Assembly (NCBI GenBank): GCA_900299145.1
Contig: OMIN01000134.1
Coordinates: 1-64,000, forward strand
Direction: 5' to 3'
Origin: Betaproteobacteria bacterium
GTDB taxonomy: Bacteria; Pseudomonadota; Gammaproteobacteria; Burkholderiales; SG8-41
DNA length: 64,000 nucleotides
Numbering within the stretch: the first letter of the stretch is position 1; each line of letters begins with the position of its first letter. Under the pieces are notes generated by a model. That model ran no database searches and was not told the origin of the DNA. It saw only the letters and a program-made list of their open reading frames with translations. A program made the position numbers and the translations under genes. This document shows, piece by piece, positions 37,832 through 41,415 of the stretch.

Positions 37832-40750
37832 ATGTCGATACTCAAACATTTGCGGCACGCCACTTTTCTACTGTCTGCTCTTTTCCTGATTTTCTCTAAT
37901 GGGTTGGCGCAGCCGCCAGCGCCAGCCGAGGCGCCATCACGCGAAGCAAGGATCGAAAAACTCAAAGCCGAATACGCGCAGGCAGAGAAATCCAATGATG
38001 GAGATGCGTTGTTACGGGCATTGGTGCCCTTAACAGAATTTCTCAAGGGAACGCCTGATTGGGGCGTCTGGCAACGCAGGCTGGTTTGGAGAGAGTATCA
38101 CTACGGCAGTCAGAATCGGGCTATTGAACTGGGCGAAGAATTCGTAGCTAAACAAGATATGCCGCCCATGACATATTCCAGAGGTGTCTCCGAATTGGCA
38201 TGGATGTATTTTGATATCAACCGGGTGCGCGAAGGCATCGTAACACTCGCAAAAGCCGAAGCGGCTTTTTCCGCACTGCCATCCACAATTTTGCCTGCAC
38301 AGCGCGCCGCCTTGGAAGCCAGTTTGATTGCAGCACGCGGCTACGGATTTTGGAGAAGTGGCGATCTGGAGACCTCTAGCAGTACGCTGCGTAGAGGATT
38401 GGCGCTCGCCATGCAAGCAGCTGTGGAAACTGCCGGGAAAGCAAGTAGCAGTGAATCCAATAGCGAAATATATTCTCGAGCGTCGGGTGAAATGTACCGG
38501 CTAGCAGGGCTGCTATTGTATGCCTTGCTAAGGGAAGGCAAAGTGGCTGAGGCTCACGCCATCGCGGAAGAATGGCTGGTACGCGCCAAAGCCGGTTCAC
38601 TAGACCGGAATCAATATGCAGTTTGGCAGCGGCGACTGGGCAGTACCTTGGCAGCACAGCGTAAATTTGAAGAAGCGTTGGCTGCAGTACGAGCTGGATT
38701 TGGCGAGCAACAGCAAATGGGGGCAGAAGACACCAGCCACAATGCCACCATAGGCTACAACCTGGAAATACGCGCACTTGTCGGCCTGCAAAGGTGGGCT
38801 GATGCCGACACTACATACAAGCAATATCGTGACGCTGCGCGCGGCGATTCAGTGGCATTACAGCGCGCGTCGAATGCGCCCCTGGAGTCAATCGTGGCGG
38901 CAAAAAACGGGCGTGTTGACGACGCGTTAAGGCGCATCGAAGGCAGCATCCGATCGCGAACCCGTCTTTACGGCGCCAGCCATTATCTGACTCGTGAGTC
39001 TCGAGGCATACGTGGTGCAGTGCAATTGATCGGCGGCGCCGCAGATAGCGCTCTAAGGGATTACGAGGAATTGTTTACTGTCTTGCTGGACACACCAAGC
39101 GGCTGGACTGATCTTAGCCCAACCGGTGTGCGTGGTTTTTACCTCGACGTTGTGCTGGACGAATATCTGGGGTACGTAGCAGCGCGATACCGCGCTGGCG
39201 GCGCATCAGCAGTCCCTACCGCTGTCGTCAACCGGGTAGTACAGCTTCTGGATCGCGTCGGCACGGGTGCGGCCCAGCAATCGATTATCGATGCTAGTGC
39301 GCGGGTTCGTGCGGTAAACCCGGAACTGAAGGCGCTGCTAGACAAGGAACAAGCATTGCGCGGGGCGGTGCAGATGGCTTTTCGGGAAATTTCCGATTTA
39401 CTGGCAAAAGATAACAGTAAAACCCCAAGTACCGAGCGTGAGAAAATATTAATACGAATCAAAGAATTACGAACAGCCACCGACAGAGCACAGCAGGATC
39501 TGGATGAAACCCGGAAGACGATTTCAAGCCGTTTCCCTGCCTATCGCGATCTTGTGACACCGGTAAGCCCGAAACCAGATGCAGTGCAGGCAGCTTTGGG
39601 CAACGGCGAGGCGTTCATCAGCATTCTACCCACGCGCCACGGCACGTTTGTGTGGGCTATCAATCAAAACGGGCAGCATGCATTGCATGTCTCTTCATGG
39701 ACAGAGCGCGATATCGCACAGCGCGTACAATTGCTGCGCAAAAACTTGGACATTGGTGCGATGCTGCCAGCAGCGCTGGCATTTTTTGAGTTCGCGCCGT
39801 TTCACGAGGTCTATAATGAACTCATTAAACCCGTGGCGTCCGCACTCAATGGTGCGAACACGCTGACTGTTGCTACGGCAGGGGCGCTGGCGAGCGTTCC
39901 CTTTGGCACGCTGTTGAAAGCGCCTGCGCAGGATTTTAAATCGGCGCAATGGTTGATCCACGATTTTTCGGTTGCGCAGCTGCCTGGTTCGTCGGCCCTG
40001 GTTGCGCAACGGCGGGCGGCGCGGCGCAATGCGGCTTCACAGCCACTCATCGCCTACGCCGATCCGGATTTTGGTATAGCGCCCTCCGCCCCGCACACCG
40101 TACCGGGCTCCACGCGAACGCTGGCCACGGGTGCCGTGGCGAAGACTGCCGGGGAATACGTGGCGCACCGTGGTTTTCGTTACGCGAATCTCCCAAGGCT
40201 GCCGGAAACACGCGATGAGGTCATGGCTATTGCAAAAGCTGTCGGCGCAGATACCTCGCGCGACTTGGTATTCGGTGAACAGGCCACGCGCCGAAATGTG
40301 CTTGGCAGCGACCTTTCAATCTACCGCGTGGAGGCGTTTGCCACTCATGGACTGCTGCCCGGCGAGATTCCCGGCGTGTCTAGACCATCACTGGCAATGG
40401 CGGTTGCACGCGATGTTGACGAGTCACCGCTTCTGGATCTGGATGACGTGCTCACGCTGAAATTGAATGCCGACTGGGTGGTACTGTCAGCCTGCAATAC
40501 CGCTGGCGCGGAAACAGGCGGTCAGGCGATGTCTGGGTTGGTACGCGGCTTTTTCTTCGCGGGCGGCAGATCGGTGCTCGCCACGCATTGGGGGGTGGAA
40601 TCCGACTCAGCCACCGCGCTGGTCGGCGAAGTGTTCCGCAGTCAGGCAAGCAACGCCGCGCAAAGCCGTGCCGCCAGCCTGCGCGAGGGGCAGCTCGCGC
40701 TGATTCAGGGCAAGATCGGCGGTGGCAAATATGCCCATCCGTTTTACTAG
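37832..40750 (+). CDS. Exported TPR-like/CHAT-domain protein (caspase-like peptidase fold), stops early
   Basis: 972 residues. Signal peptide LRHATFLLSALFLIFSNGLA then QPPAP, so it acts outside the cytoplasm. Helical, TPR-like repeats cover about residues 30-480, a charged helical region follows (about 500-580), and a CHAT domain covers about 640-972 with the dyad His839 (FATHGLLPGE) and Cys888 (LSACNTAG). CHAT domains are cysteine peptidases of the separase/caspase clan. It ends KYAHPFY then TAG, where the family has HPFYW; codons after the TAG read SPYALFGDPAK before a second TAG (40784-40786), so a Trp codon seems to have become amber. Only about 12 residues are lost. A small exported thioredoxin-like gene follows. 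Confidence 0.85.
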   Translation: MSILKHLRHATFLLSALFLIFSNGLAQPPAPAEAPSREARIEKLKAEYAQAEKSNDGDALLRALVPLTEFLKGTPDWGVWQRRLVWREYHYGSQNRAIELGEEFVAKQDMPPMTYSRGVSELAWMYFDINRVREGIVTLAKAEAAFSALPSTILPAQRAALEASLIAARGYGFWRSGDLETSSSTLRRGLALAMQAAVETAGKASSSESNSEIYSRASGEMYRLAGLLLYALLREGKVAEAHAIAEEWLVRAKAGSLDRNQYAVWQRRLGSTLAAQRKFEEALAAVRAGFGEQQQMGAEDTSHNATIGYNLEIRALVGLQRWADADTTYKQYRDAARGDSVALQRASNAPLESIVAAKNGRVDDALRRIEGSIRSRTRLYGASHYLTRESRGIRGAVQLIGGAADSALRDYEELFTVLLDTPSGWTDLSPTGVRGFYLDVVLDEYLGYVAARYRAGGASAVPTAVVNRVVQLLDRVGTGAAQQSIIDASARVRAVNPELKALLDKEQALRGAVQMAFREISDLLAKDNSKTPSTEREKILIRIKELRTATDRAQQDLDETRKTISSRFPAYRDLVTPVSPKPDAVQAALGNGEAFISILPTRHGTFVWAINQNGQHALHVSSWTERDIAQRVQLLRKNLDIGAMLPAALAFFEFAPFHEVYNELIKPVASALNGANTLTVATAGALASVPFGTLLKAPAQDFKSAQWLIHDFSVAQLPGSSALVAQRRAARRNAASQPLIAYADPDFGIAPSAPHTVPGSTRTLATGAVAKTAGEYVAHRGFRYANLPRLPETRDEVMAIAKAVGADTSRDLVFGEQATRRNVLGSDLSIYRVEAFATHGLLPGEIPGVSRPSLAMAVARDVDESPLLDLDDVLTLKLNADWVVLSACNTAGAETGGQAMSGLVRGFFFAGGRSVLATHWGVESDSATALVGEVFRSQASNAAQSRAASLREGQLALIQGKIGGGKYAHPFY

Positions 40751-40858
40751 TCACCGTATGCGTTGTTTGGCGATCCAGCGAAATAGTATTTACTGTGCAC
40801 TATTGAGTGCGATACGAATCTTGAAAGCCGTTTCTTCACAAACCAAGGGTGGGACGTT

Positions 40859-41326
40859 ATGTGGCGCTACATCATGATTTTGTTGCTCGCGACAACCAGT
40901 TCACTTGCGCAAGGCCAAGAGATTCCTTGGCGTTCCCAATCACTGAGTGCCGCAAGGGAAATTTGCCGGACGGATCCGTCGAAGCACATACTGGTGTTTT
41001 ATACGGATTACAAAACCTGAGCAGGGTGCGCCTACGTCAGTGGCGTTCTCTCCGGGGGAGAGATGAGAAAGTTGTATTCCAAAGATTTCGTGATTATAGA
41101 AGCAAAGCCGCCCAATCAGTATCCCGAAGGCCACGAAATGCGTAGCCTGACCAGCGCCCGCTACACCCCGCTGTTTGTATTTCTAGATTACAGGGGCAAG
41201 AAAGTTATGCAAACCCGTGGTTTTATGAACGAAGCTGAGGCCAAGGCACTTCACCAGTTTGTTAGCACGCGCGCTTACCGCAAGGGCACGTTTACCACCT
41301 TTACCGAAGCGCAGCCCGCCAACTGA
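40859..41326 (+). CDS. Exported thioredoxin-fold protein with in-frame TGA: candidate selenoprotein (Sec54)
   Basis: 156 codons open except for TGA at 41018-41020. Signal peptide MWRYIMILLLATTSSLAQGQ, then REICRTDPSK and the first strand HILVFYTDYKT-TGA-AGCAYV. The TGA is at the first position of a CxxC-like site (UAGC), where thioredoxin-fold proteins have a redox cysteine. After it come the helix ending EMRKLYSKDF, strand VIIEAK, the cis-proline strand ARYTPLFVFLD, and GKKVMQTRGFMNEAEAKALH. A perfect hairpin with a GGG loop lies 33 nt on. The same genome segment carries a GrdB-like Sec gene. Alternative: a recent nonsense mutation of a Cys or Trp codon. It lies 109 nt after the CHAT stop, on the same strand. 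Confidence 0.65.
41047..41063 (+). promoter_or_regulatory. SECIS-like hairpin for the thioredoxin-like gene
   Basis: TCTCTCC-GGG-GGAGAGA forms a perfect 7-bp stem with a 3-nt loop beginning with G. The loop starts 34 nt after the UGA (33 nt between), within the 16-37 nt window reported for bacterial SECIS elements. It lies inside the coding region, as bacterial SECIS do. Confidence 0.5.
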
Positions 41327-41330
41327 ATCA

Positions 41331-41365
41331 ACGGTACTATCCGAGCCGGACTTCGGCTGTACCGT
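41331..41365. terminator. Hairpin between convergent genes, possible terminator
   Basis: ACGGTAC...GTACCGT arms enclose an inner AGCCGGACTTCGGCT hairpin. There is no T-run, so it may be a weak or Rho-assisted end. It lies between the thioredoxin-like gene (+) and the OYE-family gene (minus). Confidence 0.45.
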
Positions 41366-41415
41366 GATTTAATCGCAGGTGCTTAAACGATGAAGAACAT
41401 CGAGGGCTGTTTCGG

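Follow-up and report, generated by a model that had tools for sequence, protein, structure and literature searches.

In Table 1 of a 2026 survey (PMC13188914), 119 families or subfamilies of prokaryotic selenoproteins are listed. The entry of that table that comes nearest to the gene described in this study is the 'Thiol:disulfide interchange protein' (PF13098 Thioredoxin_2, UxxC, WP_011366075.1). For the Sec-decoding Alpha- and Betaproteobacteria and the Pseudomonadales, the part of a 2006 survey (PMC1794560) that deals with these groups gave FdhA as the only selenoprotein. Here we describe a gene from a betaproteobacterial genome in which a UGA at codon 54 almost certainly encodes Sec, as judged by sequence comparison. 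The gene lies in a window of 64,000 nucleotides (contig OMIN01000134.1), by which we mean the whole stretch of DNA that was analyzed. Its frame runs from the ATG at 40859 to a TGA stop ending at 41326 and contains a single internal TGA (41018-41020). This confirms what the first-pass annotation, which was made from the letters of the window, had noted as a frame open on both sides of one TGA. Codon 54 stands in the context YKT-U-AGC-AYV. The protein opens with a hydrophobic N-terminus. After this come the first strand (HILVFYTDYKT), the segment U54-A-G-C57, a helix and the segment YTPLFVFLD, which includes Pro104; both the place of the TGA as the first codon of x-A-G-C after the first strand and the intact YTPLFVFLD are as described earlier. 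The annotated parts are, one per line:

40859..41326, + strand: putative selenoprotein gene of 155 residues plus TGA stop, with one internal UGA read as Sec (reading of the frame, and homologues with the same UGA)
40859..40918, + strand: probable signal peptide, about residues 1-20 (N-terminus read by eye)
41018..41020, + strand: in-frame TGA, codon 54, very likely Sec and the first residue of UxxC (U-A-G-C) (TGA in 5/5 loci, Cys in 28/28 aligned distant relatives)
41027..41029, + strand: Cys57, presumed resolving partner of Sec54 (invariant in 32/32 alignment rows)
41047..41063, + strand: SECIS-type hairpin TCTCTCC-GGG-GGAGAGA, loop 41054-41056, encoding LSGGE (sequence, folding and conservation)
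41168..41170, + strand: Pro104, the cis-proline position of the thioredoxin fold (invariant in 32/32 alignment rows)

Read with the usual code the gene ends at codon 53, or is started at 41063 by the list of open reading frames, and standard annotation would therefore miss it. The ATG at 41063, where the hairpin ends, is present in the window copy only. Since CTG takes its place in the other four loci, a separate start at this position is not a common feature. The protein is probably exported, since, judged by eye, it begins with what resembles a signal peptide, and two homologues show ...SGLAQA at their N-terminus, a usual cleavage pattern, likewise read by eye. In the structure model the putative signal peptide region is the part of lower confidence. 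Export had been claimed before, and the claim rests on this look of the N-terminus.

The same TGA recurs in relatives of the bacterium. We sampled 74 genomes from 9 genera of the bacterial family, the window's genome included, and searched them with a profile made from the four full-length proteins. At E 1e-12 the gene was found in five of these genomes, which belong to three genera and include the window's own. All five copies carry TGA at the aligned codon, and none of the matches at this threshold in the 74 genomes has a sense codon at the place of codon 54. Four copies are full length, three of them being 47-52% identical to that of the window. A read-through search over the window's genome and its relatives, 149 genomes in all, gave a match in 33 at E 1e-3; the four strongest matches after the window's own all contain at least one in-frame TGA (one in three of them, two in the copy of genome G056), and the remaining matches contain no stop. 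In the G056 copy the N-terminal part is preserved together with the TGA and the hairpin, but beyond GGELRKLY the sequence departs from the others and the 3' half is missing. This locus (L011, G056:C44:16706-16918) is a decayed remnant of the gene, and what follows it looks by eye like a gene for a TctC-type binding protein.

Substitution rates were calculated with our own script from Nei-Gojobori counts. For the closest pair (G023 and G043) the values were dN 0.09 and dS 0.62 upstream of the UGA and dN 0.08 and dS 0.39 downstream of it. In the other pairs synonymous change beyond the UGA is at or close to saturation (dS at least 1.64), with dN between 0.33 and 0.39 in this part. The codons on both sides of the UGA are under purifying selection, and since dN is well below dS after the UGA in the closest pair, the 3' half is maintained as protein. 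This substitution pattern indicates that translation passes the UGA. Could the TGA nevertheless have arisen by nonsense mutation, or by an error in sequencing, in what would be a Cys-type thioredoxin-like gene that recently became a pseudogene? The decay of the G056 relative in its 3' half points in this direction, as does the patchiness of the gene, since 69 of the 74 family genomes have no match to it at E 1e-12. However, the same TGA stands in five genomes of three genera, contradicting the mutation of a Cys or Trp codon that the first-pass annotation had kept in view, and selection acts beyond it in the closest pair. The hairpin and its spacing are conserved as well. We consider a pseudogene exceedingly improbable, and Sec at codon 54 is the reading that we follow.

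The hairpin has 7 bp and a GGG loop; its stem starts 26 nt and its loop lies 33 nt after the TGA. The first-pass annotation was right about the perfect stem and the loop but had the hairpin start 34 nt on. In all five loci a hairpin of the form CTCTCCGG[C/G]GGAGAG stands at equal distance, with the loop 33 nt after the UGA. According to section 5 of PMC13188914, the bSECIS model has a loop of 3-9 nt and a stem of 4-16 bp, with the loop 16-37 nt from the UGA. The same section gives a G within the first two loop positions and an energy limit of -7.5 kcal/mol. The geometry of all five loci agrees with this model (3-nt loop, 6-8 bp stem, GG, 33 nt), and the earlier statement that the hairpin fits the published geometry holds for loop size, position of the G and spacing. 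The energy of the bare hairpin is -8.8, -10.3 and -11.9 kcal/mol in three loci and -6.9 in two, the latter being weaker than the limit. Using our own coding of the published model, we found that 102 of the 1849 TGA triplets of the window (both strands) precede a model-fitting hairpin of equal or greater stability. Because so many triplets have one as good, the hairpin by itself is weak evidence; what goes beyond chance is its conservation in other genomes.

Where the four full-length copies have a residue in common that is encoded by degenerate codons, the codon is identical in 4 of 5 cases within the hairpin vs 8 of 50 elsewhere (Fisher p 0.006, which is only a guide as the sequences are related and had been seen side by side beforehand). 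The position of the hairpin had been given by the first-pass annotation before this comparison. The codon identity suggests that the hairpin is kept as RNA. Covariation adds little because the stem varies in one pair only: it shows one compensatory base pair, and 77 of 500 shuffles do as well. The hairpin encodes the glycine-rich LSGGE, which is present in all five UGA copies and accounts for the helix whose richness in glycine had been noted before. SGGE occurs in 4/4 Sec rows of our alignment vs 0/28 aligned Cys rows. Hence the RNA signal seems to have dictated the protein sequence here, LSGGE being found in the UGA copies and not in the aligned Cys relatives. An Rfam search over 40800-41400 gave no match. 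At 41028-41046 of the window, directly before the SECIS-type hairpin, a second stem is predicted in all five loci, although its register differs; it may have a part in SelB binding or none.

The window's genome (5.5 Mb, 158 contigs, 99.69% complete) encodes selA (PF03841, 514.7 bits), selB (442.7 bits), tRNA-Sec (74.5 bits) and selD (422.6 bits), with selA adjoining selB. Its selD (L080, G000:C129:8959-9888) contains one in-frame TGA in the context HGGG-U-GCK, and its fdhA (formate dehydrogenase alpha, 1438.8 bits) contains one in the context RI-U-HAPTV. Very probably, then, the organism decodes UGA as Sec in these two other genes. Together with the gene at 40859-41326 the genome holds at least three probable UGA-Sec genes. 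In the family sample tRNA-Sec was found in 67 of the 74 genomes, and being so common it carries little information when found together with the gene.

Between selB and the tRNA-Sec gene of the window's genome we noticed a gene for a thioredoxin-reductase-like flavoprotein (Pyr_redox_2; L075:5450-6361, G000:C110), which carries a CADC motif in this genome. A homologue lies in the same interval in all six sel loci examined (the window's genome and five others, L108-L112); in L112 about 2.4 kb separate it from the tRNA gene. This flavoprotein may be a source of reduced selenium, or it may be of service to Sec proteins. The main text of PMC5322559 is without the terms 'thioredoxin reductase', 'pyridine nucleotide' and 'FAD-dependent'.

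Searched by sequence, the window protein gave no match in Pfam, NCBIfam or PDB. With U read as C, the other three full-length Sec copies match PF13098 Thioredoxin_2 at 32.5, 27.1 and 30.9 bits (cut-off 27), a family to which the window protein itself has no match. When PDB was searched with the profile of the four sequences, 8 weak matches came up, the best being 2lst (thioredoxin) at E 1e-4. We aligned 32 proteins (4 Sec, 28 Cys), the rows being chosen from loci on hand and further matches being left out. All 28 aligned distant relatives have Cys where the four proteins have Sec, and Cys57, Pro104 and Gly113 are invariant in all 32 rows. In the tree the four Sec proteins form one group (94/89) beside the long-branched Cys rows L044 and L043, where the join is unsure. 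AlphaFold2 run on this alignment gave a model with a mean pLDDT of 90, a pTM of 0.81 and the strand-helix order of the thioredoxin type. The top rows of a Foldseek search with the model are mostly redox proteins of thioredoxin fold, the best being 4fyb of H. pylori (E 6.7e-6); DsbH (2ju5), C-terminal domains of DsbD and thioredoxins are among the other matches, and the query TM-scores are only 0.45-0.60 in the best 50 rows. A thioredoxin fold is thus predicted, and the model and the fold search support the earlier assignment to this fold.

A frame that stays open beyond the UGA would also be seen if a near-cognate or suppressor tRNA read the codon as Trp or another residue and no selenium were involved. 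The aligned relatives, however, have Cys and not Trp at the place of codon 54 (28/28), the genome holds the complete Sec machinery together with a TGA-containing fdhA and selD, and the SECIS-like hairpin is conserved. Read-through of this kind appears very improbable to us. The reading of the UGA as Sec, which had been proposed at the outset, is supported by the conserved TGA, the Cys relatives, the Sec machinery and the selection on the codons. As evidence against it the first-pass annotation had named homologues with neither Cys nor Sec at this place, absence of selB and selC, and an intact sense codon in close relatives with decay elsewhere in the gene. We found TGA in four more genomes and Cys in all aligned relatives, selA, selB, tRNA-Sec and selD all present, no sense codon in the family matches at E 1e-12, and decay in G056 with the window copy intact. 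Its interpretation is supported, since none of these tests came out against it.

Starting from what is established here (the conserved frame and UGA, the conserved hairpin, purifying selection on both sides, complete Sec machinery and the predicted thioredoxin fold), we infer the following course of events. When the ribosome reaches the UGA at codon 54, SelB with Sec-tRNA would bind the hairpin with its loop 33 nt further on, which would lead to insertion of Sec. The protein would be exported and would fold as a thioredoxin-like domain with the active site Sec-Ala-Gly-Cys beside the cis-Pro104 loop. In CxxC thioredoxins the first Cys is nucleophilic and the second is resolving. By this established mechanism Sec54 would be the attacking nucleophile and Cys57 would resolve the mixed selenenylsulfide. 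The oxidised enzyme would most likely be recharged by electrons from DsbD, and would act as a reductase and not as an oxidase. DsbD_TM is encoded in all five genomes with the gene, and also in 10 of 14 control genomes. The role of a periplasmic selenol/thiol-disulfide oxidoreductase recharged through DsbD seems to us reasonably likely. It might also be possible that the selenoprotein has the task of a specialised periplasmic peroxidase or repair enzyme, and not of general disulfide exchange. Selenols are good at peroxide chemistry, and the family is narrow and patchy. However, thiol-disulfide exchangers have just this layout of UxxC and cis-Pro, and to them also belong the protein's relatives and matching folds (PF13098; DsbD C-terminal domain, DsbH), which makes such a specialised task less likely. 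Taken as a whole, we hold our explanation to be highly probable, namely a selenoprotein with hairpin-directed Sec insertion that is an exported thioredoxin-like enzyme with probable recharge by DsbD.

In an order sample of 399 genomes, 38 besides the window's matched at E 1e-8, with no stop among the matches listed. In a phylum sample of 398 genomes there was no match at E 1e-9 except in the window's genome. Within the window's genus none of the 13 other genomes, one of them 62% complete, gave a match at E 1e-3. Searched against GTDB contigs, the single window protein had no match and the alignment had two, MERD01000091.1 and JACPTK010000016.1, which are the same contigs as those of G023 and G043 and are not counted twice. 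The viral contigs, plasmids and phages searched contained no match to the selenoprotein gene. The neighbouring FMN oxidoreductase has a full-length counterpart, 76-87% identical, in 10 of the 13 congeners (L083-L092); neither the selenoprotein gene nor the CHAT gene lies within 1.5 kb on either side of it in these ten. The CHAT gene is located directly upstream of the selenoprotein gene in the window (37832-40750) and encodes an exported-looking protein of 972 residues with a C-terminal CHAT domain. The full-length copies of genus g3 (G023, G043) have a ThiS-like protein, a BNR-repeat protein and a TPP enzyme as common neighbours, all of which are absent from the stretches of the window, G021 and G056. 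In both of them (L076 in G023, L074 in G043) the selenoprotein gene lies between the gene for the BNR-repeat/sortilin-like protein, with the ThiS-like gene beside it, and that for the TPP enzyme. In G043 this interval also holds an ornithine cyclodeaminase-like gene. We read the selenoprotein gene as an accessory gene that was lost, gained or moved. The neighbours do not point to a substrate.

Among the open-licence papers searched, no title or abstract opening describes this family. NCBIfam, which includes models for many selenoproteins, gave 0 matches for the window protein (E up to 10) and for L008 and L009 (E up to 1). The relative L010 matches two of the NCBIfam models weakly in its thioredoxin part, seleno_TsoB (NF045694) with 14.8 bits vs a cut-off of 805 and trx7_PDZ_seleno (NF041199) with 11.9 vs 300. 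As a small, probably exported and testable Sec enzyme, the protein could be a seed for finding more of its kind in environmental genomes. It would also extend the set of selenoproteins in a lineage for which the survey of 2006 (PMC1794560), in the part concerned, gave FdhA alone.

The Cys-type members of PF13098 from this bacterial family and its order (L013, L017, L044 and others) likewise have an invariant CxxC, Pro104 and Gly113, but they have Cys for Sec, are 18-31% identical to the window protein and are without SGGE. Among described selenoproteins, the GOS family 'Trx-like 2 (thiol disulfide interchange protein)' (cd02953, PMC2398784) is similarly a thioredoxin-like thiol-disulfide interchange protein with UxxC; its sequences come from marine metagenomes, as far as that paper's description goes, and the comparison is by description only. 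With the family of WP_011366075.1 the present gene has in common a Thioredoxin_2 domain, above cut-off in the other three full-length Sec copies, and Sec as the first residue of UxxC. In contrast, the members of that family given in the relevant part of PMC1794560 are from Geobacter (two species) and Syntrophus, with none from Betaproteobacteria. The two were compared by description and domain; below the level of the domain they may or may not share descent. In conclusion, this appears to be a new family of a well-known kind, the UxxC thioredoxin-like selenoprotein, with very strong comparative support; the novelty claimed in the first-pass annotation thus stands at the level of the family and not at that of the kind. 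It is quite likely that we have here a new selenoprotein family, seen in one betaproteobacterial family, with a periplasmic Sec at the N-terminal position of the thioredoxin active site and with an LSGGE helix that is set by the needs of the SECIS and not by those of the protein.
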